From Branchiostoma lanceolatum (Eukaryota > Chordata > Leptocardii > Amphioxiformes > Branchiostomatidae), in contig NC_089724.1 in the NCBI RefSeq assembly GCF_035083965.1, positions 30,402,435 through 30,466,434 of the forward strand: a stretch of 64,000 bases of DNA. The letters are read 5' to 3'. This document shows, one piece after another, positions 30,301-55,900 of this stretch. Made by a program: the position numbers and the translations under genes. How positions within the stretch are numbered: position 1 is the stretch's first letter; the number at the start of each line of letters is the position of its first letter. The notes below the pieces were generated by a model. That model saw only the letters and a list, made by a program, of their open reading frames with translations, was not told the DNA's origin and made no database searches.

Positions 30301-32666
30301 TGCTGCTGGCTGAGTGTCAAAAGCTTTTGACAGAGTCGACCACGGAATACTGCTTCAGCACCTCGCCGTTCGTGGCACGCCCTCGAAGATGTTAGCCTGG
30401 ATTAACAGCTATTTGTCTGGCAGAGCTCAACGTGTGATCGCCAACAATCAGTGCAGCAGTTGGCGTTACGTCACTTCTGGCGTTCCGCAAGGGGGCGTTT
30501 TGTCCCCATACCTGTTTCTAGTCTATATGTCCTCCAGAACCACAAGGTATGAGACCACAGACAACAATGGCTACGCGGACGATATTGGTCTGTCTCGAAC
30601 CATTCCTTGTGCTGATGTCGAGGCGGACGACACAATGCAAGAAGAAACCACACACTTGGACTCCTGGGCCGCCGAAAATAACATGATCATGAATGGAGAC
30701 AAATCCTTTGAACTCAGAATGTGTTTCGCGAAAACCCCTCCGGAACCACCGCCCCTTATTCTTGGAGGAAAGGAAGTACCAGTGGTTACTTGTGCTTCTT
30801 ACCTGGGATTTAAGGTACATTCCAACCTTGGATGGGACAGTCAGATTACACACGTAACAAAGAAAGGTTCCAAGCGTCTACATTTCCTTCGCCTTCTTGC
30901 GAAGGGAGGTATGCCTCCCGAGGACTTGCTCACCGTCTACACGACTCTTGTTAGACCGGTATTGGAATATGCTCATGTTTTGTATGTTGGATGCACTGTA
31001 TCGCAAAGAAACACTCTCGAGGCTGTGCAGAGAAGGGCACTGAGAATCATCAACAGAAACAGTAGCAGTCCGACGTCTTCCCCCCTGCCAACCCTGCAGT
31101 CAAGACGAGAAGAAGCAGCGAGAGACTTGTTCACGCAGATGCGGGCAAACGACCACCCCCTGCACTACATGATCACCAATGACAGGAAAGAAGAAACTGG
31201 GAGGACTTTACGTAACCACACCCATCTTTCACTGCCGAAATGTAGAACTGAGAGACTTAAAATATATTTTCTGTACCAAGCGACGCTGCTGCATAACAAA
31301 TCTCTCTAAACCTCATAATGTCGAATACCTTCATACAGATTACAAGCACTCGTATTATTTCTGTATTTTAATGACTTATATAATGCGTATTTTAGAACTT
31401 GTTATTGTATGTTTGATCTCTGTGATTTTTAAATAAGTACTTTCCACTTGAAAATTATGAATATTTAAATTAATTTGTGTGAATTAGCTGTAATTCAGAC
31501 TTATATTCAATGTCTGCAAATGCTAATAAAGACCTTTTGACTTGACTTGACTTGACTTGACATAATAATTATTGTTCGTTACTATAATCTAGTTATCATT
31601 GTTGATATTTCTTTGTATTATTTTGAGTCAACTCTGTTGACCAAGAATATGAAATATTTGACCCCTCGACACTCCTCCTGAATCTCGACCTCTACGAAAA
31701 GCAGCCTTATGTTTAATAGAGTTAAACATCGAGTTTAGATAAAGGCACAAACAAACAAACAATGATTCAATCATGTCTAATAATGCATGATGGCATGAAA
31801 CCAGATGAGGCGACAGCAAGCAAAACCTATGGATTGTATCCACCCGCATATTGAGTTCCGTCTTATTGCACCACCGAATTTTACTTCTCCTCTATGATGG
31901 TTATGGAAAACACCGAAAATAGGAAAACATCTCGCGAGGTAGTCTTGAGGTAGACTGAAGTGACACTATTGAAGTATCCACGAGTGCAGTTGTAGAAGTG
32001 CAACCAGTTTGGTAGGCAAGCAGGTTAACCTTCTTGGTAGAAGTGACACTAGCGTGGTAGCCTTAAGCGCAGTTGTAAAAGTGACACCAGTGTGGTAGCT
32101 ACAATGTTTAGCCTTGAGTGTATACATAATCGAAGTGATAGTAGGCACCCACACTAGCGTTACTTTCTACACTTCTTGAAAACAGATATAAAGGATAGCT
32201 GCTGTGATACCATGTTTAGTTTCTTCAAAGAGGTTAAAAAGGGACAGCCTTGGTTTCTTCAATTCTTGTTATAACGTTTTTGGTATCTATTTCAAAGATT
32301 TAGGCTTCTTATTTTTTGCCCATCTGGCTATCTTTTAAACCCTCTGGCATTAGATTCGTAGTATGCGGAGGCGCGCTATTACGCTTTTTTTTGCAGAAAT
32401 GGTCTAATTATCTAGCTAGATACCTACCTAGCTAGATCGATGACAATACAGATAAAAAGACACATACAGGTAGAAATAGATACGTACTTATACCGAACTT
32501 CAGCCTGCTTGTCTGGGCCAAAAGAGCAGAACGCCGGTGACAATCGTGAAAACAGTCGCCCGGAACAGTAGAACACCGCGGCAAACACCGCGCCTCCACC
32601 GGCAAAGGCCACGAGATGTGTCCAACTCAGCGGAAGAGTTGTCAACATGCTGCAATCGGCACTCAT
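26734..32666 (-). CDS. Small multipass membrane protein, possibly TLC-domain-like (tentative)
   Basis: Candidate exons: 32666-32494 (start MSADCSMLTT, hydrophobic AFAGGGAVFAAVFYCSG, then LSPAFCSFGPDKQAEV), 30065-29979 (AATGVCCGIIGILAGYVSLL), 28943-28834 (with LALHHAITAFAEL in one frame), 27546-27473 (INGLDPYVVMFHQRM), 27252-27149 (VGTLVFYLYIKVLVLPFYLY) and 26866-26734 (LWTVLFVCQPLLYMMVVYWW, stop TAG). Exons 1-2, 3-4 and 5-6 join in phase, but 2-3 and 4-5 do not. So a short exon may be missed, an indel may be present, or the gene may be dead. Total length near 225 aa, several hydrophobic spans and an HH pair after a membrane segment resemble TLC (TRAM-LAG1-CLN8) proteins such as TLCD4/5. The similarity is weak and no function is claimed. 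Intron 1 carries an antisense non-LTR retrotransposon. Confidence 0.4.
27420..27472. repeat. (TAGA)n/TA microsatellite at an exon border
   Basis: ATAGATAGATAGATAGATAC directly abuts the putative splice donor of the exon ending at 27473. It may have altered that junction. Confidence 0.6.
28210..28750 (-). repeat. Interspersed repeat family A', inverted copy
   Basis: It mirrors 23207-23640: GTACATCTCTGTCC, then GGGGGCCCAAAAT, then a CACA-rich tract, ending in the hairpin CATGAAAAATTATTTTTTTC ATGGAGATA. It is intronic in the TLC-like gene. Confidence 0.6.
28944..29978. other. Intron of the TLC-like gene; no further feature
   Basis: Only short unsupported frames are present. I see no known repeat block or exon similarity. 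Confidence 0.4.
30140..31561 (+). mobile_element. 5'-truncated CR1/L2-like non-LTR retrotransposon with reverse transcriptase
   Basis: An open frame at 30314-31309 encodes the reverse transcriptase from SKAFDRVDHGILLQHLAVRG through VPQGGVLSPYLFLVYMS and the catalytic GYADDIGLS, then the thumb region. 5' of it, 30195-30315 continues the domain (QYAYMPKSSTTVALLK, then LDTKKASMVRVLLA) across two frameshifts, so the copy is dead. The catalytic YADD is intact. The 3' end is marked by AATAAAGAC followed by repeats of TTGAC (31540-31561). Such 3' microsatellites, in place of poly(A), are a feature of CR1/L2-type elements; the clade is inferred. It is inserted antisense in intron 1 of the TLC-like gene. 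Confidence 0.9.
31970..32150. repeat. Degenerate two-unit minisatellite
   Basis: Two ~75-base units share GCAGTTGTA.AAGTG, CCAGT.TGGTAG and AGTGACACTA. They are intronic in the TLC-like gene. Confidence 0.4.
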
Positions 32667-33409: not shown

Positions 33410-36220
33410 AATGATGATGATGATTTTATTCGGTAAGAAGCTCGCGGATTACGTTACAACATAATCCGAATTCCGTTCTTATTACAAAAAGGGTTTCCAC
33501 ATACAATCTTGATACAATTCCCATAATCACAATATCATTACATTTCGAAAAACTTGCACAATAAAATCCAAACTTTCTTAAATCGAGTTAGCCACGTCGA
33601 TACATTATCACGTATGACATAACGTGAAAAGAAAGAGAACAATATAATACATATAACATATGATACAATAAAAACAGTGCTGATGGTACTGCTGATTGAG
33701 TTCATTGTTATAGAGCCGAATAGCAGTGTGCAGAAAGGAGTTGCTCAGCCTCTTAGTGCTTTCGGAACGCTTATTGAGCTACAGTTTCCGAGTGAGAGTC
33801 CCGTGGCTCCTGTTCTCGTGGGTGGCACCAAGTCGTGTAGGGGATGGTCCACACGGAGCATTCGTTGAAACAGGTTCACTGCTGCCTCTTCCCTTCTCGA
33901 CTGCAGTGTGGGCAGGTCAGGTACGGATCGTCTTCCTCCCAAGGAATCCCGGGGGATTCTCTCAATGGCCAGTTCCTGCTCCTTAGTGCACCCAACCAGT
34001 AACACGTGACAGTACTCGAGTACTGGCCGTACAACGGTGCAAGATAGATTTGTATAAGGTCCGGTAGGCTGGTGCCTTGTTTGGTCGGTAAACGCAAGTA
34101 GTGTAATCTACGCGATGCTTTACTGATCATTGAAGTAACCTGTTCGTTGAAGGTAAGGTTCTTATCTATGACGAAACCTAGTCCTTTGGCACAGTCCACA
34201 GATGGTACTGGTTGGCCTCCGAGAGTGACCGTGGGTGGAGTAGGAACTGATCTGCTGAAACAGATCTGAAGAAGCATGCTCTTTCCACCGTTCAGCGTCA
34301 TCTTGTTGTCTAGTACCCAGGAGTTGAGGTTAGAAGACTCTTCCTCTACAGTTGTGTCCTGGTCGGCTAAGGGCACAGAGAGAGTTCTTGACAGAGAAAC
34401 GTCATCGGCATACCCAACGTTCATGGTGTCGTCATGTACAGTGGTGCGTGTGCTCATAAAGAGAAGAAACAGGTAGGGGGAAAGAACCCCTCCCTGTGGC
34501 TCCCCCGACGTTAGGGTGCGCCAGGAACTGGACGCGCCGTCGGCTACGACTCTCTGCTGGCGGTTCTGAAGGTAGCTGTGGATCCACCTCTGCATGCAAG
34601 GGCTAACGTGGATGTCAATGACTCGCTGTAGAAGCCGAGCGTGGTCCACACGGTCAAACGCTTTACTCATGTCCGCAAAGATGGCTCTGACCAGGGTCGG
34701 CTTGTTTGAGTCCACAGCCTTCAGCCACGTCTGCACCATTCGAACCAGAGCCAGGGTCGTTGAGGAACCCTTAACGTAGGCGTACTGGTCCTTGATGACA
34801 GTCTGGATGGAAGGTAGTAGCCTTTTCAAGATGCACCTCTCCAGAAGCTTTGCCAAGACTGAGAGAAGGGACACTGGTCTCATGTCACGGGCTTGAGATG
34901 CGCCGGCAAATTTAGGCACCGGGACCACGTTTGCTGACTTCCAGGCTACGGGTACTGTTCCTTCTTCGTATGAGGTGTTGAATAAGTGGGCTATAATCGG
35001 GGCAAGGTCATCTGCAAACACCGTTAGAATCCAGTTCGGTAGATTATCTGGACCGCATGCCTTCTTGGGTTTGACAGACTTCAGAAGACACTTGACCTCC
35101 CCAATTGAGCACAGTTCAGGACCAGGTTCACCGAGTGGTAGAGGAAACATGTGGAGTGGCGCACCCTGACACCATGCCTCAGAAAAGTGTTGGCTGATCG
35201 TTTCCGCCACTTGCTCTGGGGTCCCATCCGCTACAGAACGTTTCGGCTTCTCCTGCGATCTGCCAAGCTCTCGGTTTATGCAGGACCACCATTTGCGCGG
35301 TTTTTCCTGTTTTAGATCCTGTATACAGTTCCGGTAGTGCCAGTTTTTCGCCTGCTGCACAACAGTTTTCACCTTGTCCCTCAGTTGCTTCCACAAGGGC
35401 GACTTTCCGTGTCGCAGGAATTCCGCTTGCCTCTGTGAAATCGCTCGTTTCACCCTTTCCGTCATCCAGCTTTTGTCGTTCGTCCGAACTGACTTAACCT
35501 TCAGCGGGAAATTATGCTCCACCAGACTCATGATGGTGTCGTAGAACGGCGAGACTTTCTCTTCCACGGACGTGGCTCGAAGCACACGTGCCCATTCAGT
35601 GGAGGCAATGGCGAGGGCAAAGCTTGTTTTGTTGGAGTGAGAGACTACTCTACGAGACAGCTTGACTGGAGCTTGCTTCTCATCCGGAGACCGAGCTTGT
35701 AGCACGACGCAGGCGTGGTCACTTCTACCTATCGGTGCGATTACCTGGGGATCGCGGTAGAACCGAGCAACATTCGTGATCACGACGTCGAGAACAGCTG
35801 TGCCCCTGGTGGGCTGCTTGACGATTTGCCTCAGTGACGGATGGGCGGCATGGATACGTCGTAGGGGTAGTCTGTTTACATCTCCACAGAGCAGGACTCC
35901 GGCTTGAGGTTGGCGACGGTGTATAACATCGATAGTGTTGACCAGGTATTTCAGAATCTGATCATTTCCATCTTTGTTATTTCTACACGGAGGGTGGTAA
36001 AAAACACCAAGTATTAAAACAGGAACAGACCTAGGGATCCGACGTGGCCGGACCTCGATCCACAGGACTTCTAAGTCCTTGACCTCAAGGTCTTGGAGTC
36101 TGTGGGCAGGAATGTTGTTCGAAATATACGTGACCAGTCCACCACCCTTTTTACCTAGTCTGTCTTTCCGAAACAGTTGAAATCCATGCAATGACAAAAG
36201 ACAGAGACCACCGTCGCCAT
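33410..36220 (-). mobile_element. Near-intact non-LTR retrotransposon: AP-endonuclease plus reverse transcriptase
   Basis: A minus-strand frame of 832 codons (36374-33876) carries an AP-type endonuclease (GFQLFRKDRLGKKGGGLVTY, LLCGDVNRLPLRRIH, IGRSDHACVVL) and then the reverse transcriptase (RDMRPVSLLSVLAKLLERC, FADMSKAFDRVDHARLLQRV, GGVLSPYLFLLFMS, GYADDVSLSRT). Catalytic YADD is present. The endonuclease N-terminus is missing, so similarity starts near 36220. A single missing base near 34032 puts the last ~90 residues (LVGCTKEQELAIERI) in another frame. The 3' end has AATAAAATCATCATCATCAT at about 33410-33425. It belongs to the same family as the copy at 30140-31561. The two converge tail-to-tail on the first exon of the TLC-like gene. 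Confidence 0.92.
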
Positions 36221-36888
36221 GGCAAAATCTTTTTATGTTGCCAATCTTGTTGTTATTACGTTTGATTTTAAAGTGTACAAAGTGGCGGTTGGTGGTGATG
36301 AAACGCCATCCAATAAACTTGAAAGTTGATATATTTGTTCGGCTGTATGAATACATAAAACTAGGGCTATTCAAGTAGCCAACGGCTATTGCAAAGGAGT
36401 ATCAATACACAATACAGGCGGTTACAATGCGTCCATAAAGCACAGGAGCTAGGTACTACTTTTTTTGTTTAAAATTGCAAGCTTTCGATCAATTGTAAAA
36501 GTGTAAAGTTTCAACTGAAACATAAGTTTAGATTAATCATTATTTGGTGTTTCTCATTTTGTAACCAAAATTTAAGTAATTTCATTTTCTTAACAATACT
36601 TTATAGATAAAAAGAGCCGTTCACAGATCTTAAGCCATGGCGTTCTAGTGTTAGCAATTCTGTTTCTCAATAAAAATATTTATTTTTTCAAATTTAGCTT
36701 GAGCTGCAACAACTCAAAAAAGCAAAAGTGTTTTGACGTACATGTTTAAAGATTCTGATGCTAACTTTACTGTAAGTTGACTTTAATTGAAGCTTAAAAT
36801 ATGAAGGCCTTGTTGCAATTGTAACAGGTGTAACAGGGACTATCATGTAGCAGTGATAGCACCACACCAACTGCTCAACCTATGGGGT
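36221..36888. other. Intergenic, AT-rich
   Basis: The open frame of the retroelement runs into 36221-36374, but this part shows no endonuclease similarity. The rest has no recognisable feature. Confidence 0.4.
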
Positions 36889-37010: not shown

Positions 37011-40000
37011 TCAGGCATAATAGGTAAAGTAGCCGATCAAAAATGCCACAAAGATCACAGAAAAAACGATCCTGGCAAAGAAGTCCACTCTGCTCGCCTC
37101 TCTCTCAGCTGACTGCAGCTCGTCCTCTTCCTCCCCGGCCCATGCTGTGGACGGTCGTGGCGTTGATTCCACCATGGTTGACCACAGTGCCAGCTGTATG
37201 TATGTGAGGGAAGAAAAAAAGAAAGAATTAGGACGAAGGGTCATCTGTTCTAGGAAGACTTAAGAGTCGGATGTACATGTACAGTGTTTTTCTTAGTATT
37301 GACGAAACATTTTAAAGACATTTCAATAAGGAGATCTTACATGAGATTTAAATTGATGGGTACTTTAAGCACTAGCAAGCCTGTAAAATCTTTAGTTATG
37401 CATCTTGTGCAACCATATATGAACACTTTTCACTTAGATGATTTAATGTTGAAAATTTAACACTTGTCAACATGGCAAAAGTGGAGTTCAAAACTTAAAC
37501 TGTAGAGCGTTCTATACTTGTCGTGGTAACACTCATTGCAGATTTACAGAAATTAGAGCATTTGGAACTGTGGCAACCTTGAATGTGAACGAGAAATCTA
37601 GCTTTTAGCATAGCTTTCCACTAACAAATCTAGCTGTAAAGAAAAAAAAATCTGTTTGAAACCCTGAATAAGAAAAAAATATATCAACCTTTCCTCCTGA
37701 GCAGATGTAGTTGACCAGAACAGTCTCCAGCAAGGTGAGCATCACCACAACGAGACATCCGATCATCCACACTTCATAGGCTCGCACCAGGTTCGTCTGG
37801 GAGTAAACATGAGACGCATTTATAGCCTCTACCAGACTTATTAAGTTGCTGTTAAAACGTCGCCAAAAAGGCCAAATACTGAAAATAAAAAGTCTAGATA
37901 ATTTGCCAGAGGAGTTAGCCATAGAGTTGCAAATGATTCAGCATGTTGCTACCATTTTCAAAAGAGTGGGGTATAAAAACTATGAATGAATCATAGTACA
38001 AAGCAAAACCATTAAGGGACAATCGCCTATGTCAGCCATTGGTCAAGACCAGCTATGACTCATACCAGTCCCAAAGGTCTGGTCATTTGGTATTTCTGGC
38101 GAAGACTTCAGTAGCATAACTTTTTGAGTATTTATAAATTTAAAAAAAAGCTGAATAACTACCCAACCAACGAACAAACGCTCGTGAAAACATTTCTTAG
38201 TGGACGAGGCTCACCTGGGGTTTTCTCGTATTGCTGCTCTTGATGATCAGAGACAGGAGCGTGCTGATTCCCAATCCGACCCTCCCATTGACCTCCCGGG
38301 GGTGCAGCCAAGTGCCGAGCCATGACGTACACACCACTGAGGCAGTGGGCAGGAAGGTCTGGAGCACGTGGCTCTGCAGACGGCGGGAAAACTGCAGCCG
38401 GACGTCCAGGGTGGAGATCTGAGTCAGACCTGAGGCATGAAAACATCATTCGTTACTCTCCTTTGAAAGTTTTAAGAAGCAGCGACTATCAAGACATTTA
38501 ATTGCATGATACTTTTTTTTCAAGTTGGGTGTCTATTACTAGTATTATTGGTTTCTAAACATTTTTGTTTCTATGCCATTAATGAAACATTTGTGCCTGT
38601 GTTTGTGTTTGAACAATTCGTTTTTTTTAAACATTTCTGCAGTTCATTTGGAAATGTCTAAGTGTGGTATCATCGAGACAAAAATAACAAGAGTTCTACG
38701 ACCTCATACCTTCGCCAAATGATTTTGACCTTTATGACTGACGTATTAGGAGTGTTTTTCATCAATCAAAAATCATACCAGTTGATCCTCCTCACCCAAA
38801 TAACATAAGTTGTCCAAACCTCCTTGTTATGATTATGAGCATAACAAAGAAGGTTATGCTAACATTTATCATCAATAATGCAAATAAGCTCCTTATTAGC
38901 ATAATTTGATTCAATGGTGTTCACATTCACACAACTTCTAAATGCCACAAGTATGAAATTGCCGTTATTTACTAGTATGGAATGATAGTAGTTTCTCATT
39001 AATTATGCAAATTAGGCCTACATTTGCATAATGTCTATCTATTGACATTCCTCTCTTCCTCAGTTACAAATGTTACATATTTGAATAGTCATATCATGGA
39101 ACACAGCAGGTTTTTAAAATTGCCTCATTAATTATAATCTGATTTGCATAATTATCATCCAATCATACAAAGCATCACGTAAGCTATCTACATACCAAAA
39201 ATCATGACCATCCATCAAGCCCATCTCGAGTTATATTATTTTCTCATTAATTATGTAAATGAGGTTCTCATTTGCATAGCTGATATCTATTAATATTTCT
39301 CTCTTCCTCAGTTACATATGTCACATGTTTGCGAGTCCTATCATGGAAATTGATGGATGTATAAACTTTCCTCATTAATTATGCAAATTAGTTACTGATT
39401 TGCATAATAAGTATCCAATCATGTACATCATCGCTCAAGCTATGTACTTGCAAAAAATCATGACCTTCCATCAAGCCCTTCTTGAGTTATTCCCTTTCAA
39501 AGTCTGAAGCAAAACCTGCCCCTGCAGTTGCTAGGGGGCCCAAACCTATACCACTTACTCTCTGCCCAACGAGCTATCTACCACTCAAAAATCAGTTCCA
39601 TAGCATGTCCACAACACGAGATATCATAACAGGAAGTTCCGCTGCAGTACCGTAACAAGCCGCTAGGGGGCCCAAAATCTAATCATTTTCAGGTTTCATC
39701 GAGACCTACCAACATACCAAATACCAAGACAATCCTTCCAAGAATTCTGGACTTATCGTGTTCACTAACAGACACACAGACATGCTCGGTAAAATATAAC
39801 CTTCTCGGCGAAGGTACATTCCACACCAATGAATACAGCTGGCTGACAGCCAATTTGTCCCTGGCAGTAACTGACGTTTCCTGCCTGCCTCATGACCCCT
39901 CATGACCAACTTAGCACCCCTGCCCGTATCAATATCCCTTGAAACAACACAGACCACACGTCGCAACCAGAACGCATAGTATGAGCATACAATTTAACAC

Positions 40001-43000
40001 ATTTTTACACTTTTCTCCTTAATTATGCAAAGTACTTTGCCCAAAATCTAATCATCTTGAGATTTCCCACATACACACGGACACACCAAATACGACAACA
40101 AACCATCCAGGCGTTCTCGACTTATCCTGTTCACTAACAGACACACAGACATGCATGAAAAAATAACCTTCTCGACGAAATTTCGTCGCGAAGGTAATTA
40201 TAGGAGATAAAAAAAAGCAGTTCGCCTGATGTTTTGGACTTCTTGCACTCGTTGGTGTTGTACAGGCAGTTGCCGAAGTAGGCTTTGCACACGGCACACT
40301 TGTTCCCTTGACTGCACCCCCTCATATCAGGGCAGTGGTCGGCGTTGTAGGCACACTTGCCTGTGAGCAGATGGCAGGCTGCAAGAAAACATCAATTGCT
40401 GCAAGTTAGTACTGTACACTGTCAAGGATACAACAACTATAATATACGTATTTAGACAGATGTTACCATTTTTGCAAGGCCCGGTAACATATAATAGTTT
40501 TGGGGATGGGATCTTTTAGAGACCGCAAATGATGCCAAAACGTTGACTGTTGACCCTTACCTGGCTCATATTTGTCCATTTGCTGAATTGAAGAATGAAC
40601 CATCAGCCCTGTCAGTTCGAACTGTGACACGATGGCGGTCATGTCTGTCGTCACGGGCCCGGGAGAGCTGGCGTTCTTTCCCGGGAGGAGAGGGAAATAC
40701 AATCCGCTGTCTGCAGAAAACACCACATTAATACCCGATAATATGATTTCATCAGGTTTGTGAATGACTGAATAGCAAAGTTCTTTTATTCACAACCACG
40801 TATGTACACGACCTCAACACCACATGTTAGTACAAGAAATGATTCAAGATACAAGTCAAAACTCAGAAATGAGAGGGAAGTTGCCAAGACTTACAAACAA
40901 ATACTGGCAATCTAATCGTGTGTCGTTTATTGAAAAGTCATGCCCAAGTGCTAATTGTACAGCAATTTGTAATTCTAGAGTAGCTAGAAAACAAGTGCAT
41001 AAATACAACAGTTGAAAATTATTAATATACAAGATTGAAATTCACCTTGATTTGCAATCGCTGTGACACACCATTTTGGTTAGAAATGGCACAATCTTTC
41101 ATCAGAATCTTTCATATCAAATGTAATGTTTGCTTTTCTATAGTGTAATGCATCTACGACATCAAAAAGGGTTTCTTACATCCATGTAGTTTGAAGCTGC
41201 ATTCCTGTTGATCCAAGGGGTACCTCGCCATACTCGGCACACAGGTCAGGTACAGAGTCCTCCTGTAGATGGACAATCTACAGTTATTCACATTTCCCAA
41301 AACAAGCAACAAGTTTTAAGAGTCTCGATGCTACAGACTGTTTTGAGTACATATTCAAATGCAACAATCCCCACAATGCGAAAATAGGTAAATATCTAAA
41401 CGACTGCTTTCACATTAGAAACAATATCGAAACTAATGATTAAACCAACTCGATTATGACACTATATCAAGAACGTAATACTATGCTAGCCCTTATTGCA
41501 TTGTATTAGTAATTAGAATGTTAAGTTGTATTCTATACTTCTACTTTGTATTATGTTTACGAATTCTTGCCATACTTTGTACCATGTACAATTGTCGAGC
41601 CTTAAAGTTTTTCTTCTTCCTGTCAGTGTGGTGTCATTCGTCTAAAACTATAGAATGGTAGTAAAAAAGCAATAAGCACAAGCAATACAATATAATTCAT
41701 AAAGATAGCGTTCAACAGACATAGAAACATACCTCAGAATGTATGATATGTACATATACAATAGTACCTATACACAACACAATCAGGAATGGGCCACGGT
41801 GTCAAAGTAGTAATATTTCATTTTTAGCATGTGTCTAATTTTTTAAATTCCTGGTGTCTTTGCAAATTTGATGTGAGTTAGGTCATAAATCTGATAGCAA
41901 CAGGACAGAAAACTTAACAGGATTGGCGTGTTTCATTTCAAGTACAAGTAACTTGAGGGACTGGTGGGAGAGATACGGTGAGATATACAAGGAGGAAACT
42001 CACGTTAGCTCGTGAAGTAAAATTCCAGACGGGTGAAGCCACATGCTGATGTCATTATCGCTCCCTCCTCTCCCGCGCTTTCTCTTCTTGGTGACGTCAG
42101 CAGCCCTCCGCACGGCCGCTCCAAACGCCATCGGAGGGGCCCACATCAAAGATGTCGGCACTGGTGTCCAGTGGGTGGTCAGACCGCGGAGACGGGGGTC
42201 AGCCCACGCCATGTTGTACTCCACCGTCACTGACAAGTTCTGTAAACAACCATGAACCACAATTATCACCTTTATCACATTTCGTGATTGTTACGTTAAC
42301 TTGTTTGTTTGGAAGAAACTTCCCTTTAATCCTATCCAGACTGGGCTTTTTTGGTATATCTGGGACTGGGGGGGGGGGGGCTGATTCGGCCCCCCCCCCC
42401 TCATAATTTCCGAACGGTATGATGTATCATCACCAAATTTGTAGGGAGTGATATTCACGTCAAGTTTTATAATTCCTGTAATTTTGGTGACGTTATGACG
42501 TAATATGACGTAATTATGACGTCATTTATGTGATTTTATTGGCTAAATAGGGAATTCCCGTAATATCTATAGGAATTAAACAAAACGGTTTGTATTATTC
42601 ATTTTAAGGTATGCAAAGACATACAACGTCAATGGTAGGTACGTTGACGTCAAATGACGTCATAGAATGGCGTCATGTGTTGTTAGCGATCCCTTGGGAT
42701 CCGCCATCTTGGATCGGCCATTTTGAAATTTACAAAAATCCTTTTTTTTCCACTTATGACCCCAAAGGACGCTGAAAATAGACTAAAAACGTTAATCTAA
42801 ATGTTTCTGATAAAGAAAATGTCAGGTATTGACGATTTTGAGGACGAAAAAGCCTGCTGATACCTGAAATAGTGATATAGTCCGCCATCTTGGATTTTGG
42901 CTGATTACGTCATCAAATTAGCATAAATTATGAATATTAAATCAGGAAAGTTACATCTAATTACATGTTATGTTATACATGAAGGAAAACTAGTGTAGTT

Positions 43001-44641
43001 GTGCAAGAAAACCCGAGAAATATCATTGTTTTAAAAATATTAATGATTTTTGCATAAAATGCCAGTCAGAAACCCGTTGCCATGGCAACATGAAAAAATG
43101 ATAAACTTAAACCATTATTATAAAATTGTTGCCAACAAAATTTTAGGAAAAGTCAGCAAGTTTGGTTGTCCTAGCATACATCGTTCGGCAGTAATACGAT
43201 GTCAAAGTTGGCGCGGGCACTTTTAGCCCCCCCCCCCAGTCTGGATAGGGTTAATTTCGAAGTACTGCTTCTAAAGCATCAAGCCATGTGCTTTAGTACA
43301 TAGAAGCCTTTTATTTTATTTAATTTTATTCAAATTGCAGCAGGCAATACATGACAACCCAGGCAGCAGTAGCTGATATCGGGCGTCTGACACATAGCAC
43401 ATACAATAACAATGTTGAACATTGAACATTGAACATAGAAGCCTTGGTGTGTGTGTGTGTGTGGGGGGGGGGTGTAGCTGGGTCAAGAAGGCCTATTGAT
43501 ATCAATATTATATTGTAACAGTCTTAGTATGTCAGTATCTATTTAACTCCATTCTATCATCATCTTCTATTTTTCCTGGTCAATAATAATGTTATCTATT
43601 TCACTAACGTTCGTGGGTTATGCTTATTCACTCTAAGGTTACCTAGTGAATTGATGTACCTTATCAGTATTTCATGGCATACACGTTTAACCGTAGGCAA
43701 AAAAGTAATATTTTTTCTAATGGCATGATGTGCTAGAGACAAAAAATTGATATGATGATAGTTAATTCTGCCACTGACCGCGTTCTCTTCAAACAGAGGT
43801 CCGACATGAAGAATCGTCACCGTTGATGTCACTTCAAACTTCTCTTCTGTCATACAATGAAAAATAAACAAAACGGATATTCTACAAGTTGCCTGTGAGC
43901 ATGCACACTATATCGTCAGACCATATAAACGTTTGACATGTTTTTGCACTTTGTTGTATGGGCATTTATGTAAAATAAACATAACAATTATTCTAGAATT
44001 TTGCTCTGAGCATACAGACTATATCATCATACAATACAGCCATGTTATACGTTACTGTATAGGCTTTTTTGTCACGCATGAATTAATATCAGAAACATGC
44101 CAGTTCTAACGAGGTTACAGCAAAGCTGTCAATCATGGCATAGCAACAGTTTATTATGCCCATGGTAACGTACACTTACACGACTGGGGTGAGGTACTGA
44201 CATCGATAGGTGCAAAAGGTTTGTATTGAGAACTCTGAGAGCACTAATTTACTTTTAGTGCACATTTTGTAGCTCAAGCGTTTTCATCTAGAAATCTTCT
44301 GGCGCTCTCAAATAACCCCTATCAAATGCGTAAAGCTCAAATAGAAGAACAACAGAAGAATGCATATGCTCCTTCGAACTATTATAAAGCGCCGTTTACG
44401 TTTGATCATCCGTCCATTGGAAAGCAAATGAAGGCCAGCAACTGCCTGCTTCATTTACATGAAAAGTGACTTAAGACGCTCTGTAAGGACAGTTGTCTCT
44501 AAGGCCCAGTTTACACACGCGTTTTGGGGTTGTACAAGGAGAACCCTAGGTGGCTGTAGTAGCCTTTTCTAGTAGAAAAACTCCACCCGAGCAGCCCAAA
44601 GTTTCTCACACACAGCCCCGAGTCGACACCGAAAACATATG

Positions 44642-44710
<69 letters not shown>

Positions 44711-47700
44711 CTATCTAAACCGGGCCTGACGTAAAGAGAACGCTGCTACACACCTGTTTGTGGGCCGACGTTGTTGTCGTACCCTTCAGGCATGCGCGCT
44801 CCGGTTCTCCATTCGTCCCATTCTTCCTGTGTCGCGTGGTCCTCGCTGACCAGCTCAGACTTGAATGCCGACAAGTTTTCAGACATTCTCTTCAGAACAG
44901 TATTCCACTCTTTCTCCACTTCTGCGAGAACTGTATCCTCTGATGCCCCTGTGATTGTACTCGTAGCTGTCGATACCAAAGCACCTGTTGTTGTCCTTGG
45001 AGTACTTTTTCCCGAGGTTGCAGCAGTGGAGGTAATATCAGCAGTAGTAGTTGCAGCAGTAATAGTATCAGTAATAGTATCAGTAGTAGAAGCAGTAGTA
45101 GTAGCAGTAGCAGTAGTAGTAGAAGCAGTAGTAGTATCTACAGCAGTAGTTGTAGCTTTAGTAGCTATAATAGTGGCAGTAGCAGCAGTAGTTTCGGGAG
45201 TAGTAGTAGCAGGTGCAGTAGTAGCTGCAGTAGTAGCAGTGGCAGCAGTAGTACCAGTAGCAGTACTAGCTGCAGTAGGTGCAGCAGAAGTAGTAGTAGC
45301 AGCAGCAGTAGTAGTTGCAGCAGCAGTGGTAGCTGCAGTTGTGGCCGAGGCAGTAGTAGTTGTGATAGTAGCAGCAGTATTTTCGGGGGTAGTAGTAGCA
45401 GCAGCAGTAGTAGCTGCAGTTGTGGTAGCAGCAGCAGTAGTTTTAACAGTAGTAGCTGTAGCAGTAGTTTCAACAGTAGAAGCTGCAGCAGTAGTGGTCG
45501 TAGCAGCAGTAGTTTCGGCAGTAGTAGTAGTAGTAGTAGTAGTTTCAGGAGCAGTAGCCGAAGCAGTAGCTGCTGCAGCAGTAGTAGCTTCAGTAGTAGT
45601 AGAAGTGGCAGTTGTGGTAGCTGCAGTTGTAGCAGTAGCTGTAGTAGTGATAGCTGTAGCAGTAGTGACTGCAGCAGCAGCAGCAGTAGTTGCAGCAGTA
45701 GTAATAGTTGTCCTTGTAGTCAGAGCAGTTGATGAAGGTGCAACTGTTGTTGTTTGGGCTACAATTGGAAAAAAGAAAACTATGACATCATGACGTCAAT
45801 CAGTCATACAGTTGAGGTAAATTGTTTGTAACAGAAGCATGAAAAACAACACTTTTGTCAGAACGGTCTTCTTCTTGTCCTACACCTCTGTGGAGACTCC
45901 TGGAGTTGGACAGGTAGCAGTCGGTGAAATCGAGAACCACTGTGGACTAGCTGTGCTCGCTGTTGTTCCTTGGGCGCTTGGACACCTAAGAGTGTTGGCC
46001 CACTTAACGCTTGTGCCAAATTTCAGGCCTAAAATGACTGAGCTTGAAATGAATTGATTTGAACATTTGACAGGAGAAGGAAGAGAAGTAATGCCAGGAA
46101 AAACAATATATTCAATCCAAACATGTAGCATGGAGTGAAATATAAAAAGTTGTATACTGTCTCTTCAAGACAATATCAACAAAGTTTGTTTTTGAGATAT
46201 ATATTATTGAACGCGACAGAAAGGAGACACATACCAAGTGCTTGACTTGATAAATGTTTAGGTCTTTGAAGGCTTTGCAAGTGGTAAATTGGTGACTTTT
46301 GTATTTGTGAGGCTGCTGTCGACTCAGCTAAATGTCTAGTACATAAATGACGCGTGCAGTAACAAAATGAGATTCTGAATTGATAGTTTGCACTGACTGA
46401 CCTACAAAAAACTGTTTTTCTGTTAACACCAGCCAATGCATGTACCTCCCCAAACCTCGGGAATTTCATATGCAACTGCACACAAAAAAAGAAATCAAAC
46501 CTAACTAGTAAAAACTGTTTAGAAGTAGCGCTAGTCGACGACTTTCATTTTACTTTGTGTTTAATTCATTACCGTGTACTGTAACTTGTCATTATGATTA
46601 TCTTGTATTCTTGCAATTAGCCGGGAACGAATTTGCAATTAAGTTATTATTGATAATGATTGGTAATAATCATGATGTTGGCGAATGTAAATGTGGTGAA
46701 ACCCCTGAGTTTTGTGGTTGTTTTGCTTGTTGGGAATCAAACGTCTTTGCACTGAAGTGTCACATCTGGAAACCTGTATTTTAGCACAGCCGAGTAATCT
46801 GTATGAAGCAGAGAGAGAGAGACTCAACTCCATGACATGTGTGACGACAATGCCCTGCGTCTCGCGTGTGTTCTTCTCGTGGACATGTAACGTTAGCATC
46901 TAAGTCCCTCGTGCAGCAATTCCAAAAGGAACCGGGCCATAACATCACCCCACTTATACGAATACACTCATACCTTGATATAGCTGGCAGATGAAATTGT
47001 TTCTATCGCTGCATTTCTTGTCCTCCCACTCGAGATCATCCGGCCGGAGGACGGCACAGTGTTTATCGTCGCCATCATTCGGTTTATTGTCTTTCCAGTT
47101 GGAATAGCCTGTTGTCTCCAGGGCTTCGCCGTCCTCAAACACCCACTGGCCTTCGCTGTCGGTGTCTTTCAGTCCAATCCATCGTCTGTCCTTGTCTCCT
47201 CCCAGGCCGGCGATAAAAGTGTTGTCCGCACTGTCCTTCGGCATGGCCAACATTCCCCCGTCTGCGGCACACGTCTCTTTGGCCTCATCGTACTTCTTTT
47301 CATCATCAAAGTACTTGTAGCAAACTCCGTTATTACACCCTGTAGAGAATAATAATAACAATAATTGTAATTCATTATGATTTGTAGTAAACACATTGTA
47401 GTAAAAAATGAATGGTTTATTGGTCCGAAATTACCCGTGCAATGGTAGCCAGCGCTGAATTGCTGCAGGGTTTACAATCACGTAATACACAAGATACATA
47501 TCTACTCCACACTTGCACTTTGTGGAACTGTGGCAAGGGTCTGGGCGGCTGCCATTCGGCGCCAGCAGGTGACCTCAATACGACCCTCCCCAACCGAAGT
47601 CATGTACCCGTGATTCACACCTCGTGTAAAGTGCCTTTCCCAAGGGCACAACATCGGGGCATACCAATGGTTTCGAACCCGGGATCTCTCGGTTCTGGGC

Positions 47701-48113
47701 GAAACACCCTACCGATTGCGCAACACGATGCCACACAGTAAGCGAGTGACTCTTCAACTACAGTAGATAGGTTTGAGCAGGAGATATATAGAGAGACAGA
47801 AGCGTTTTTATGTCGTATCCAACTAAAATGATTTAGTACAGATTCAACGCACTTGAAGCAAGCCAAAACAGAGATATAAGCACTCGTTGAATATCCTATG
47901 CCTACTAAACACATGGCGGGGCCAATCATACAGGGTCATAAGCGGTCTCCTACTGCCGATAACATGTTAGCGCAACTAGTTAACACACACACAAAATATA
48001 GATACAGTTAGAAAGAACACAAAATGTTCCTTACCGGACAGTGGTAGAGAAGAGACGACAATGAAAATGGCAAACGCAACGGCAACAGCCAAGCCTAGGC
48101 CCAGCTTGTCCAT
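37011..48113 (-). CDS. Chimeric receptor: signal peptide, C-type lectin domain, mucin-like stalk, Cys-loop ligand-gated ion channel
   Basis: Eleven exons (high to low): 48113-48035, 47339-46974, 45758-44754, 43846-43779, 42239-42004, 41262-41180, 40710-40561, 40378-40226, 38429-38215, 37796-37689 and 37193-37011. Every junction keeps phase and the sum is 2646 nt, 881 aa. Residues 1-27 are a signal peptide (MDKLGLGLAVAVAFAIFIVV). 27-148 are a C-type lectin domain with WIGLKD, KPND, WEDKKC and FIC motifs. 149-425 are Thr/Ala-rich. 423-483 are a charged linker. 484-713 are the neurotransmitter-type binding domain with the Cys-loop C592-x13-C606 (YPLDQQECSF) and an 8-Cys insert at 664-707. TM1 is ~731-752, TM2 ~762-780 (GRVGLGISTLLSLIIKSS), TM3 ~788-812 and TM4 ~858-879. 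The protein should sit in the plasma membrane as a pentamer with lectin heads on stalks; that is inference. Exon 8 uses a GC donor; all others use GT. Confidence 0.88.
38700..40200 (-). repeat. Interspersed repeat family A, long copy in channel intron 8
   Basis: Repeated CTCATTAATTATGCAAAT(T/G)AG blocks, GGGGGCCCAAA(T/C), ACCAAATACCAAGACAATCC and terminal hairpins such as AACCTTCTCGGCGAAGGT (39798-39815) and GACGAAATTTCGTC (40175-40190) mark a composite of at least two family-A units. It lies between exon 8 and exon 9 of the channel gene and comes within ~25 bases of the exon 8 donor. Confidence 0.7.
42330..43250. mobile_element. piggyBac-like MITE (TTAA target duplication), channel intron 4
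   Basis: Termini TCCTATCCAGACTGGG on the left and CCCAGTCTGGATAGGG on the right are inverted and flanked by TTAA (42326-42329 and 43251-43254). TTAA plus a CCCTA-type end fits piggyBac-like elements. The interior contains long G and C runs next to both ends and many TGACGTCA/TGACGTAA palindromes, with no transposase. Confidence 0.8.
43447..43472. repeat. (GT)n followed by a G run
   Basis: GTGTGTGTGTGTGTG followed by GGGGGGGGG is a simple repeat in the channel intron. Confidence 0.8.
44637..44705. repeat. (TA)n microsatellite
   Basis: It is almost pure TA for about 65 bases, 50 bases downstream of the exon 3 donor of the channel gene. Confidence 0.95.
45010..45758 (-). repeat. Triplet-repeat tract coding the Thr/Ala mucin-like stalk
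   Basis: Plus-strand AGT/AGC/TGC triplets read as ACT/GCT/GCA on the coding minus strand, giving runs such as TTTTTTTT and AAAAA with scattered E, P, S and V. I read every triplet from 45756 to 44761 in the coding frame and found no stop. The tract is entirely within exon 3 (45758-44754). Dense threonine implies heavy O-glycosylation, an inference from composition. Confidence 0.9.
46140..46973. other. Intron 2 of the lectin-channel gene, no feature recognised
   Basis: Short open frames on both strands have no recognisable similarity. I see no strong repeat match here. Confidence 0.4.
47590..47740 (-). repeat. tRNA-derived SINE, family 1, intron 1 of the lectin-channel gene
   Basis: On the minus strand it reads TTGCGCAATCGGTAGGGTG (A-box type), CCCGGGTTCGAAACC (B box) and then GTTGTGCCCTTGGGAAAGGC, the same order as the copy at 700-1140. 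Confidence 0.7.
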
Positions 48114-48356
48114 TTTTTGTGTGTGTCCGACCGACTCAAACGTCGCGGCCGAAAATGTTGAAAACAGAAAAGCATTGAGACCCCCGTGGGAAATTACACT
48201 GACGTACACTCGTTAGTAACGCGCTTCTGAGTCCTTACAAGTCTATGAAACATAATTAGTTATTTGGATCTTAATGGCCATATTGAGTAATGACATTTGA
48301 AAGATTGATGATGCCCACGATGGCAAGCCACAAGCCAATGCCAGAACCATTGTTGG
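48114..48356. promoter_or_regulatory. 5' flank of the lectin-channel gene
   Basis: The start codon context on the minus strand is AAAAAATGG, with A at -3 and G at +4. No TATA box is obvious upstream. A promoter is inferred by position only. Confidence 0.3.
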
Positions 48357-48400
48357 CAAGGACGCAAAATATAAATGGCCAATTATATTTTGCGTCCTTG
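48357..48400. repeat. Perfect 17-bp-stem hairpin
   Basis: CAAGGACGCAAAATATA and TATATTTTGCGTCCTTG are exact reverse complements separated by 10 bases. It may be a small MITE relic or a structured RNA; nothing decides between them. Confidence 0.8.
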
Positions 48401-48969
48401 TGAGATGGTAACAATCATTCGCTTTGACATACACGTGTTGCTCGTTTGTCCTTTTGAGAAGATACATATACAAATCTAGTACATGTATAAAGTAAAAAAA
48501 AATGAAGGGGAAGGCAATATACTTCTGATAATCTTTTATACTAAAATATAACGTACTATAGACGTCAAATACCTGCATTTATATGTTTTTATTTTGCATT
48601 TCAAAGTTTTGACGGAGGAGGGCGGGACCATGGAATCGGTCAATGTGGCTCTAAATATACATTGATTATTCCTTTCTGTGATTTACACTAGTTATAAAGT
48701 TGAAAGTTGGATATCACATTTCAAAACTTGTGTATTTACCATCAGTTAGGAGGAAAACTAAATCTGTAAATGACTTTTGTTTGTTTGCCTCGTTTTCATT
48801 CTATCATGTCCAACACGTGAGAAATGTGTAAGAGTAGTTTTAGAACCATTGTTTTGTGATTAGTATTCGAAGTCCTGTCAGTGTCATTATATGTACTTTA
48901 CCACAAACTTTGTATCTGTATGCCTGTACTTAGCCTGATAGGGCATGAATGTACAATATAGGTTATTGT

Positions 48970-50010
48970 CTTCGCCAAGAAGATTATGTATTGGGTAGCG
49001 TTTGTACGTATGTATGTGTTTATGTACAATGTATGTAGAAAAGCAGAATAACTGGAGAATGCCTGGATGGATTGTCTTGATATTTGGTATATGGTAGGTC
49101 TTGATGAGACCTCCAAATGATTAGGAGACCCCCTAGTGACTTCTTACGGTACTGCAGAGGAACTTCCGGATTCGATATCTCGTGTTCTGGGCATGCTATG
49201 GCCACGATGCTTTAGTGGTAGATAGCTTTTAGGGAAGAGAGTAAGTGGTATAGGTTTGGGCACCCTAGCAGCTTTTTGGCACTGCAGGAGCAGGTTTTGC
49301 TTCAGACTTTGATAGGGAATAACTCAAGAAGGGCTTGATGTGGCCTCCGATGCAGACTCCTCCCGGCTGTTTTCTTTTTCAAGTTATTGTTTTTGCACTT
49401 TTACATTTTTTTTCTGATTGCTGGCCAACAACAAGAAAAAAATGTAATAGTAAAACTGGAACTTAGAAAATGACAGCCAAAAGGAGTATCGGAGGCTAGG
49501 CTTGATGGATGATCATGATTTTTGGTATGTAGATAGCTTGAGTGATGATTTACATAAGTAGATACTTACTATGCGAATCTGTATCTAATTTGCATAATCA
49601 ATGAGGAAAGTTATACATTCGCCGCATTTCACAAGACTCAAACATATGACTGTCACTGGGGAAGGGAGAAATATCAATAGACATCAACTATGCAAAATGA
49701 AGACTGCATTTGCATAATTGATGAGAAAATACTATAATTCAATATGGAGTTGACGAATCATCATGATGTTTGGTATGAAGATAGCTTAAGTGATACTTTG
49801 TATGATTAAGCAATAATTATGCAAATCAGATTCTGATTTGCATAATTAATGAGGCAATTTCAAAACCCTGCTGCGTTCCATGATCTGACTATTCAAATAT
49901 GAAATTTGTAACTGAAGAGAGGAATGTTGATAGATAGAAAATATGCAAATGAAAACATAATTTGCATAATTAATGTACAATATATGGTCAAAATCATTTG
50001 GCGAAGATAT
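48970..50010 (+). repeat. Interspersed repeat family A, long copy
   Basis: It opens TTCGCCAAGAAGATTATG with a GTATGTATGTG stretch, GGATGGATTGTCTTGATATT and ACTGCAGAGGAACTTCC, then several TTTGCATAATTAATGAGG blocks, and closes near TTTGGCGAAGATATGAGG. The palindromic CTTCGCC start and GGCGAAG end are inverted relative to each other. Confidence 0.7.
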
Positions 50011-50164
50011 GAGGTCGTGGAACTCTATAGTTATCATTATTATTCTTAATTCGTAGCTTATAAAAATAGGTTGACCGTTCAGTCTCTTGACACAGTATTT
50101 GAAGTATCCCGAAATGATAAGAACATGCTGCACATTTCAAGTCTGTTATACAAAGTAAACTAAA

Positions 50165-50265
50165 ACAAACTACTTGGTTCAACCGATTTTGGCACAACCA
50201 ATTTTGGTACAACCAATTTTGGTACAATCAATTTTGGAACAACCAATTTTGGTACAAACAATCAT
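50165..50265. repeat. 16-bp minisatellite CAACCAATTTTGGTAC
   Basis: Five to six units vary at one or two positions. The minus-strand frame gives repeated YQNWL, a by-product of the period. Confidence 0.85.
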
Positions 50266-50511
50266 TAGACAACCCAAACTACACCTCTTAGAAACATTGT
50301 AAATCACTACATGGTAATCCTCAATGTTTCAAGATTTCTTGATCACATTTTTTTGTCAATGTAGCTATGAAATGTAATCAGCAGCAAACTTGGCACAATG
50401 ATAGAACTACAGAAATCATATCATTCTGTACATCACATGACTTGTACAGTACCCCTAGCACCAAGTTAGAACACCGCAACAAAAATTTTACATGACCTTC
50501 CCTGCATCAAC

Positions 50512-50801
50512 AGCGGGTAACTCACTGGACTGCCCCAAATTGCACCAGGCATAATGGCAAAGTGGTGCCAATGGGTGCAATTTGTGGCGTGAAATTGCAA
50601 TTTCGTTGAAATTTAAAAAATGATTCACAACTGACAAAATGGGACCAATGGAGTGCAGCCATTCTGCTTGGTTCATCTGGGCTTCATATGCAAGTACACA
50701 CGTGATTGTGACCCCAAGGGAAAACTGGCACAAATATGCAAAGTTGGTGCAATTTCTTTAACCGCAATATTAATGTGGTGCAGTCCAGTGACATACCCGC
50801 T
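50512..50801. repeat. 290-bp MITE
   Basis: Ends AGCGGGTAACTCACTGGACT and AGTCCAGTGACATACCCGCT are inverted with two mismatches. The interior has GGTGCAA/TTGCACC blocks. A related end (CAGTCCAGTGAGATACACG) occurs at 61345-61363 in HOGA1 intron 4. Confidence 0.7.
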
Positions 50802-51541
50802 AACAAAGGTCCACAGCAAAGAATAGCTATATACATTATACACTTAAGGTACTAATCACCCAACACAAATTCCAACCATTCATGTCCAAAATTTACTGCT
50901 CAAATTGTAACACCACACATTTTCACAAGTTGAAATCACCCTTCTCTTAAATTTTGGAAAGTCTTAAAATAGTATAATCATGATACTATCAAAAGCAGTA
51001 CAGAATGCATTTAAGTAAAACAATTATGCATTCTTAATCATTGATAGCAGCAAGCTCTGGAAGAAAGATCGGTTATCAAGTGGTCCCTAAACCATGACAC
51101 TATTTGCAGCACTGTTGTAGGAATGTCAGATTTTTGCACAAAATGACAAAATAGTATCTTCAAAGGCCTTGGAAAATTGAATTTGTGTTTTCAATAACCG
51201 TCCTGAAAAAATGGAAGGTAGGTATGATTTTAAAACACATTTTTTAGATTTGTGATCCAACAAGTATAGTTTAACAATGTAAAACTGAAATACATCAGGA
51301 CATTTGGTATTCATATTATCCAGATATACATTGTGCAAGCAGTTCTGCACAGTTTTCCATTGCAACAACATGAGGAGAACATGTTTTCAGCGGTCGACCC
51401 CCAAAAAAGGCTAGGATTGGAAGGTTCTACTAGGGTTAACCGGGTAATTGGAAACACAAACATTTTTCCGAGGCCTAACTGCGGCTATATCTGATACATC
51501 TGTCATGGCATGATAATAATTTGCAATTAACTACAACAAGG

Positions 51542-51812
51542 ATGTCCCTATAGCTCAACTAGTAGAAGCCTCAGTTGAGCTCCTGGTTCCAATTAGTTGC
51601 TAACTGGGAGACCCCTGTCAATCCTGGGCAGGACATCTTGGTTGGGGCTGCACCCATTTTTTGGAAGGGATGCTAGCTAAATTGGGGTCCCGCGTTTTAG
51701 GAGGTGCCTCGAGCATATTAAAGGGGAAGTGTTAGCAACCCCTCTCTGTAAAAATATACCCTGCTTCTAAAACAGCAAGAAAACTCCCTGCCCAGCAATG
51801 TGCCACTAGGGG
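51542..51812 (+). repeat. tRNA-derived SINE, family 2
   Basis: TATAGCTCAACTAGTAGAAG, TTGAGCTCCTGGTTCCAATT, TTGGTTGGGGCTGCACCC and AGCAACCCCTCTCTG line up block by block with the copy at 2109-2335. Confidence 0.65.
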
Positions 51813-52229
51813 CTACAACGGTCTTATCGAACAAATTATCAATTACAGCATTTCTCAATAATCTGAAAATCTGCTCCAGTTGGTCTTGTCTGGATGACTG
51901 GCTACACACATTCTCCAGCCTGTTGTTTCACACTAGTCACAGAACTCTGTCCTCTCCCCTCGGCTGCCCTGTAGTAATATCATACACGTTAGCTTTCACT
52001 GGAGAATACAGCAGCATGGGGTTTGTAAATGTGTAATGTAAGCTGTGATGATGACAGTATAACAAGTTTGTTAGTATGTCAACTGAAAAAACAATGATTG
52101 ATCAAACTGCTGTTGAAGCACTTTAAATTATGTGTCATAGTGACAGTTGAAATCAAAAGTTGAAGTGATGTGACAAGAAAGTTTCAAGAAGCATTTACAG
52201 TGAGAGACACACTAACAAGTAACAGTCAT

Positions 52230-52475
52230 GTACACACATTTGTCAAACATTCACACACACTCACATACAATAACTACACACACTTACACACTCCCTCACA
52301 CACACACACACACTCCCTCACACACACATACACACACACACACAAAAAAAAAACACACACAAACACACTTTGTCACAAACACACACACACATACTCACAC
52401 ATAGATATCACACACAGACTCATGCATACATATTACACACAGACACATACACTCACAAACACATACACACATGTA
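52230..52475. repeat. (CA)n-rich simple repeat
   Basis: About 240 bases of CACACA with interruptions lie downstream of the zinc-finger gene stop codon. The open frame through it is low-complexity. Confidence 0.9.
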
Positions 52476-52491
52476 AAACACACATAAAACA

Positions 52492-55205: not shown

Positions 55206-55552
55206 TTCCTTTTCTTCTGTTTGTTAACTTGTTGTGTGTTAAATCTCAATGCTGTGCAAATGAAGACGGGGGGATCGTTCATGACCTGTGGAGAATTTAG
55301 AAAAATTCTTTATGGTTAGTAAAGCTTTTAATGAGTTGTAATATTACTAACTAGTACACTACTTTTATAAATGTTTGGATGTAATTTGCATCTGCATGTA
55401 ATTAGCACCCTTTTATTAGCTTGCTACCCAGCACTGTCTGTAAATATAGCCCTAGGCCTTCTTCCATATGGAAATGTAATTTGGCAATGTAGTATATCAT
55501 TCACCAAGTATTTCTAGCATGTGAGTTGTCTTGACCTGAACCTAAATTATCA
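55206..55552 (-). promoter_or_regulatory. 5' flank of the zinc-finger gene
   Basis: No exon or clear core promoter motif is seen; it is assigned by position. The 5' untranslated region probably continues here. Confidence 0.3.
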
Positions 55553-55900
55553 CCTTCGCCGGGAAGGTTATCTTTTCGTCATCTTTCGTGGGTCTGTGTG
55601 TGTCTGTGTCTGCATGTAAACACGATAACTTGAGAATACCTGGATGGGTTGTCTTGATACTTGGTATGTGGCCATGGGTTAAGGTCTTTAAATTATTGAG
55701 ACCTAGACATGATTAGATTTTGGGCCCCCTAGCGACTTGGTATGGCACTGCAGTGAAACTTCTGGTTTTGATATCTTGTGTTCTAGAGATGCTATGGTCA
55801 TGATTTTTGAGTGGTAGATAGCTCTTGGAAGGAAGAGTAAGTCGTATAGTTTTGGGCCCCCTAGTTACCAGGCTTTTGGAATTACAGGTTGGCATCAGTA
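55553..55900 (+). repeat. Interspersed repeat family A
   Basis: It starts ACCTTCGCCGGGAAGGTTAT (a small palindrome), then GTGTGTGTCTGTGTCTGC, GGATGGGTTGTCTTGATACT, GGGCCCCCTAGCGACTTGGT and ends near GGGCCCCCTAG. Confidence 0.7.

Follow-up and report, generated by a model that had tools for sequence, protein, structure and literature searches.

A candidate Cys-loop receptor subunit gene with a C-type lectin-like head and a Thr/Ala-rich stalk in Branchiostoma lanceolatum

Gene model and channel part

The minus strand of the stretch of DNA analysed here (64,000 nucleotides, referred to as the window) carries a gene model of 11 exons, running from 48113 to 37011. In-frame splicing gives 2646 nt that encode 881 aa and a single terminal stop. 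The initial annotation had claimed 11 same-strand exons in matching phase with this total length, and its model was reproduced. The exons, in the order of transcription, are as follows.

Exon 1, 48035..48113, minus strand: start codon (ATG) and 26-aa signal peptide, phase-1 donor; peak hydropathy 3.42
Exon 2, 46974..47339, minus strand: whole C-type lectin-like domain with its six Cys, in an exon of symmetric phase 1-1; Lectin_C 75.9 bits
Exon 3, 44754..45758, minus strand (1005 nt): Thr/Ala-rich stalk, then the N-terminal beginning of the ligand-binding domain (..PEGYDNNVGP..), phase 1-1; from alignment and composition
Exon 4, 43779..43846, minus strand (68 nt): ligand-binding domain, first strands; from alignment
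Exon 5, 42004..42239, minus strand: ligand-binding domain, region of loops D, A and E; from alignment
Exon 6, 41180..41262, minus strand (83 nt): Cys-loop, whose cysteines enclose 13 residues
Exon 7, 40561..40710, minus strand: remainder of the ligand-binding domain as far as the loop C tip, phase 1-1
Exon 8, 40226..40378, minus strand: of doubtful or optional status; would add 51 aa, 8 of them Cys, at the loop C tip; GC donor, phase 1-1
Exon 9, 38215..38429, minus strand (215 nt): end of loop C, M1 and M2 (anion-type pore); from Pfam and alignment
Exon 10, 37689..37796, minus strand: M3, weak donor; from alignment
Exon 11, 37011..37193, minus strand: short intracellular loop, M4 and stop; from hydropathy

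The 881 codons are read without a frameshift or an internal stop. Nine of the ten introns are GT-AG, the remaining one, 3' of exon 8, being GC-AG (CAG/GCGAAC). Splice sites were scored against all candidate sites of the gene region (716 GT, 552 GC and 631 AG sites) with a matrix of generic splice-site frequencies. On this scale all ten acceptors lie at least at the 93.7th percentile of AG sites, and nine of the ten donors at least at the 93.9th percentile of GT sites, or of GC sites for exon 8. The donor of exon 10 (AAG/GTTGAT) is weak, at the 72.6th percentile. Exons 2, 3, 7 and 8 are symmetric, in phase 1-1.

The three Pfam families named in the initial annotation were all found in the spliced protein above their cut-offs: Lectin_C at residues 40-145 (75.9 bits, above the curated cut-off), Neur_chan_LBD at residues 472-613 (42.6 bits, cut-off 26) and Neur_chan_memb at residues 739-817 (39.4 bits, cut-off 28.1). 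Elsewhere in the 64-kb window neither the lectin nor the channel parts recur at E up to 1.

With its ligand-binding and membrane domains both above the cut-offs, the C-terminal part classifies as a Cys-loop receptor. Taken without exon 8, it gave 121 distinct PDB matches at E up to 0.001, led by GABA-A beta-1 (1.9e-26; 81 of 280 aligned residues identical), and the best 60 of the 121 are anion-type by name. The Cys-loop lies between Cys 592 and Cys 606, with exactly the 13 intervening residues previously claimed, and the exon sizes of 68, 83 and 215 nt agree with those of the glycine and GABA-A receptor genes of vertebrates. Helices M1-M3 were placed by alignment to GABA-A beta-1 and by Pfam, and M4 by hydropathy together with a non-significant second alignment stretch; a hydropathy scan alone detects M3 and M4, with M1 and M2 resting on the alignment.

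The M2 segment reads NGRVGLGISTLLSLIIKSS (also given as NGRVGLGIST). Position -1' lacks Glu, 0' is Arg and 9' is Leu. The absence of Glu at -1' together with Arg at 0' marks anion-selective channels; anion selectivity is thus predicted from these M2 residues, and the pore looks anion-type, as do the closest matches. Over nine agonist-site positions, a single residue is identical to GABA-A beta-3 (Y157), one is changed from Phe to Tyr (F200) and seven differ. The agonist-site residues are therefore not those of GABA-A or glycine receptor ligand specificity, and a natural ligand, if there is any, probably does not bind in the way that is standard for GABA. A search of the channel against viral contigs gave no confirmed relative, a scope that says nothing about animals.

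Head, stalk and loop C insert

Exon 2 matches positions 2-106 of the 107 in the Lectin_C profile and carries six Cys, as in the C-type lectin-like fold. A PDB search gave 158 matches, and among the best 60 of the 158 the leaders are the phospholipase A2 receptor, the yolk sac IgY receptor, lymphocyte antigen 75 and the macrophage mannose receptor. Single-sequence structure prediction gave an unusable model (mean pLDDT 39.5).

Does this head bind sugars? The site-2 Ca2+/sugar ligands of mannose-binding protein A are Glu, Asn, Glu, Asn and Asp. In alignment with that protein the head has Lys, Asn, His (or Lys), Glu and Asp, the third position reading Lys when the alignment is anchored on the next Cys. 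Two of the five ligands are thus retained, and both canonical Glu residues of the sugar site are substituted, one by Lys and the other by His or Lys, so that the full set of site-2 ligands of a Ca2+-dependent sugar-binding C-type lectin is absent. Because only two of the five remain, classical glycan sensing is doubtful; the sequence predicts a C-type lectin-like domain and does not predict classical Ca2+-dependent sugar binding. A head that serves as a classical Ca2+-dependent sugar sensor is the less likely case. The initial annotation had supposed that glycans or microbes could gate, tether or cluster the channel, and the glycan part of this proposal finds no support in the sequence; some other partner may tether or cluster it.

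The stalk occupies residues 149-430 and corresponds to the Thr/Ala tract of about 275 residues noted earlier. Its 282 residues include 130 Thr, 84 Ala, 16 Ser and 7 Pro; Thr and Ser together make up 146 of the 282, giving it a mucin-like, Thr/Ser-rich composition though with just 7 Pro, and it is probably O-glycosylated. The tract is trinucleotide-like, and additional reading frames across it are also open. The open frame through it is therefore no evidence by itself, and it is the non-repetitive ends of exon 3 that give the exon its credibility. Departures from the repeat fall at codon position 3 in 55 of 229 cases against 28 of 229 at position 2 (p=0.004, in a test that presumes independent sites), which gives weak support for selection on the stalk.

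The join between stalk and channel is firm. In three PDB alignments of the channel part (without exon 8), the first residue matched is number 49 or 50 of the query (..ARMPEGYD..), a position encoded by the 3' end of exon 3. A single exon of 1005 nt thus carries both the Thr/Ala tract and the first residues of the ligand-binding domain, and for this reason it is close to certain that stalk and channel belong to one gene.

Exon 8 is of a different standing. It would insert 51 residues, eight of them Cys, into loop C, between the residues aligned to T202 and G203 of beta-3. Without it the model has 10 exons and 2493 nt and is still in frame, and the junction of exons 7 and 9 reads seamlessly (..KYEPGLTQISTLDVRL..). 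The ligand-binding profile then aligns over positions 9-214 of 216 (46.2 bits), compared with 9-147 of 216 (44.4 bits) when exon 8 is present; the gap in score is small, and the interruption is clear. Since the profile aligns at full length in its absence, exon 8 may be optional or decaying. If spliced in, it would alter the ligand-capping loop C and yield a second isoform.

The splice sites of exon 8 are good, with the acceptor at the 96.2nd percentile and the GC donor at the 97.8th percentile among GC sites. A stronger GC donor, CAG/GCAAGT (score 8.68), lies 18 nt inside the exon in the same phase, making a six-codon micro-exon a possibility in place of the full exon. Behind exon 8, a repeat with further copies in the window starts at 27-47 bases. 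The GC donor, the Cys-rich loop C insert and the nearby repeat had gone unmentioned in the initial annotation. Exon 8 matched nothing in Pfam at E up to 1 and had a sole PDB match, at E=1.1, and its single-sequence structure prediction was unusable (mean pLDDT 49.8). In 20000 shuffles of its bases 2596 were stop-free, and none was stop-free with at least eight Cys. Within the window itself, 129 of 13067 stop-free 51-codon stretches have at least eight Cys, including one in the antisense frame of the place of exon 8, so that the Cys-richness of the exon is not decisive.

The probable join of head to stalk

Are the lectin-like head and the stalked channel parts of one gene? Exon 2 has an acceptor and a donor at the 99.7th and 98.9th percentiles, among the best of the gene, and the donor, which ranks 7th of 716 GT sites, stands at the end of the lectin domain and in the correct phase. 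Exon 3, for its part, has no Met until the end of the stalk. The channel therefore requires an upstream exon with an initiation codon, a signal peptide and a donor in phase 1, which exon 1 offers with a hydropathy of 3.42 and a donor score of 5.24. From these features of the sequence, it is probable that the head is joined to the stalk in one gene.

The main competing explanation, which we regard as rather unlikely, is that two adjacent genes lie here: exons 1-2 would encode a small secreted C-type lectin that ends in intron 2, and the other gene a mucin-stalked anion-channel subunit with a signal-peptide exon of its own that has gone unrecognised. Reading through the donor of exon 2 adds GMSVFV and then a stop, six codons on, and an ATTAAA lies at 46565, inside intron 2. 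Because of these two features a lectin-only transcript, encoding a short secreted lectin isoform, is possible. There is also a lancelet precedent, a Lectin_C-fn2 prediction for which, according to a passage of PMC4967905, the outcome was indeed two genes. A strict scan (donor >1.0, hydropathy >2.4) of the minus strand of the 64-kb window returned two candidates, exon 1 itself and one at 30079, beyond the 3' end of the gene. The same scan of the plus strand, as a background control, returned 10, some with a common start or stop, showing that such exons arise by chance. With the donor limit kept and any hydropathy allowed, one rival appears in intron 2 (0.97) and two in intron 1 (best 1.14).

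Looser limits (donor >-3, hydropathy >1.6; positions above 54000 were covered by the strict limits alone) yielded weak candidates both within the introns and upstream: eight in intron 1 (with two starts in one frame, hydropathy 2.14), two in intron 2, two in intron 3 and 11 in 48114-54000, where low-complexity sequence near 52.4 kb accounts for seven among the 10 listed of the 11. The pair in intron 2 have hydropathies of 1.79 and 1.71 and negative donor scores (-1.15 and -1.31), well short of the values for exon 1. A candidate at 50836-50797, of 13 codons, has a hydropathy of 2.38 and a donor score of 3.69, and a distant alternative first exon of this kind would not be absurd. In the stretches scanned, no rival signal-peptide exon comparable in strength to exon 1 was found. 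The case against the fusion includes the lancelet precedent, a Branchiostoma Neur_chan_memb architecture listed as possibly artefactual, the possible lectin-only transcript, the weak donor of exon 10 and the first-exon candidates found under loose limits, and it leaves the fusion probable, not proven.

Two further explanations can be given. The lectin exon, being in phase 1-1, is removable in frame, and if exon 1 were usually spliced directly to exon 3 (both in phase 1), the main product would be a mucin-stalked channel and the head a minor isoform. A precedent for a long N-terminal insert is provided by rodent GABA-A epsilon, whose second exon has an insert of 483 aa without an extra domain, as described in a passage of PMC1975676. 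The strength of both splice sites of exon 2 argues against habitual skipping, which we think improbable. An artefact of assembly or of mobile elements that joined unrelated exons, or a gene in decay, would be in keeping with the GC donor of exon 8 and the repeat behind it, and with reverse-transcriptase frames at 33879-36401 and 30314-31306. Against this stand the uninterrupted 881 codons and the domains above cut-off, and we consider it very improbable.

We favour, with a probability of roughly 60%, a single gene for an exon-shuffled, anion-type Cys-loop subunit with a lectin-like head and a stalk. Such a gene would have originated by the insertion of symmetric phase 1-1 exons into the gene of an anion-type Cys-loop receptor. 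Its product would be a membrane subunit composed of a signal peptide, the C-type lectin-like domain, a Thr/Ala stalk of ~280 residues, a Cys-loop ligand-binding domain and four TM helices. Five subunits, all of this type or mixed with partners, may form an anion channel whose recognition heads would be held above the membrane on probably O-glycosylated stalks. It could be viewed as an orphan anion-channel subunit whose head is adhesive or a tethered modulator. The lectin/stalk/channel fusion of the initial annotation accordingly stands as a gene model; the stalk-channel part is upheld by the shared exon, whereas the lectin join is probable only, on the strength of a complete phase 1-1 exon and the lack of a strong rival signal-peptide exon.

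A bolder proposal is that the lectin-like head on its long glycosylated stalk controls gating, giving a contact- or surface-gated anion channel, with the Cys-rich module spliced into loop C as a switch between small-ligand and contact control. We think this distinctly unlikely.

Comparison with known systems

In its core, the predicted subunit resembles GABA-A beta and glycine receptor alpha subunits, with which it shares the ligand-binding and membrane domains, the 13-residue Cys-loop, a YPLD motif, and Arg 0' and Leu 9' in M2. It differs from them in its lectin-like head, its Thr/Ala stalk and the optional Cys-rich insert in loop C, and from GABA-A beta-3 in that seven of the nine agonist-site positions differ in kind. 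Such a build is unusual for an animal channel. Among the papers listed in literature searches, no title or opening of an abstract describes a fusion of lectin, stalk and Cys-loop channel. In rodent GABA-A epsilon, too, a Cys-loop receptor gene has gained length, with a 483-aa insert in its second exon, but the passage in PMC1975676 mentions no lectin domain, and the likeness rests on the length and the exon of the insert, not on its composition.

PMC4967905 is the work of Banyai and Patthy, and PMC4795631 that of Jaiteh and colleagues. In the Lectin_C-fn2 prediction (018300_PFF0 / XP_002588697.1, from two lancelets), Lectin_C similarly precedes another secreted part in a lancelet gene model, and ESTs show two genes, in that the lectin is followed by a stop and the second part is preceded by a signal peptide, according to the passage in PMC4967905. 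Here, by contrast, no strong second signal-peptide exon was found in the stretches scanned. The same source lists as possibly artefactual a Branchiostoma pair, 269420_PRF0, in which Neur_chan_memb occurs in a novel architecture; with this candidate, a gene model of the lectin-headed channel may already be on record. For channel architectures combined with other domains, a passage of PMC4795631 regards the association as evidenced only at the genome level. Whether the novel domain combinations of lancelets are real or are errors of gene prediction is a question raised in passages of PMC4967905 and PMC6071037, and the present locus lends itself to a clean test of it.

Beyond the lancelets, polycystin-1 is the nearest functional parallel and DeCLIC the nearest structural one. 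In polycystin-1 and PC-1L3, too, a C-type lectin domain is part of a channel complex, formed with channels of the PC-2 family. The passage in PMC7728438 reports that the lectin domain of polycystin-1 is essential for activation of the channel complex and that N-terminal fragments of PC-1 containing this domain activate the channel, and its authors propose that the domain acts on a glycan of PC-2. Theirs is an unrelated, TRP-type channel. The degraded classical sugar site of the present head makes a direct copy of the PC-1 glycan mechanism less likely. If the present architecture is true, cell-surface recognition would be linked directly to anion conductance, in parallel to the polycystins on an unrelated channel.

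DeCLIC resembles the predicted subunit in having additional domains ahead of the ligand-binding domain of a pentameric channel, and these N-terminal domains influence its gating kinetics (PMC9897478). In DeCLIC, however, they are two jelly-roll lobes packed on a prokaryotic receptor, without a long stalk and without a C-type lectin fold. The authors stated in 2022, in the same passage of PMC9897478, that extra N-terminal domains on pentameric channels are prokaryotic and have been observed in no eukaryotic homologue. A lectin-headed animal subunit, if confirmed, would break this statement, and would provide a natural system for the study of how an added domain controls gating.

The internal donor and the nearby repeat

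Eighteen nucleotides into exon 8, the doubtful or optional exon that encodes the Cys-rich insert at the tip of loop C, lies a near-ideal GC donor in phase 1, CAG/GCAAGT (40361-40378, minus strand). Its use could replace the insert with a micro-exon of six codons. A repeat element is located behind this exon (38800-40225, minus strand), and related copies occur within the window near 49048-49975, 55599-55864, 39670-39812, 9060-10056 and 23301-23730.

Other frames in the window

Further frames with profile matches are as follows.

1540-2037, minus, MFS_2 transporter fragment (42.9 bits)
17862-19955, plus, long frame with MMS19_C match (355.1 bits)
30314-31306, plus, reverse transcriptase, RVT_1 (67.2 bits)
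33879-36401, minus, reverse transcriptase, RVT_1 (81.5 bits)
54411-55223, minus, C2H2 zinc finger (sub-threshold, 20.3 bits)

Both RVT_1 frames are retroelement remains or copies, and the frame at 17862-19955 belongs to an MMS19-like gene, of which it covers the C-terminal part.
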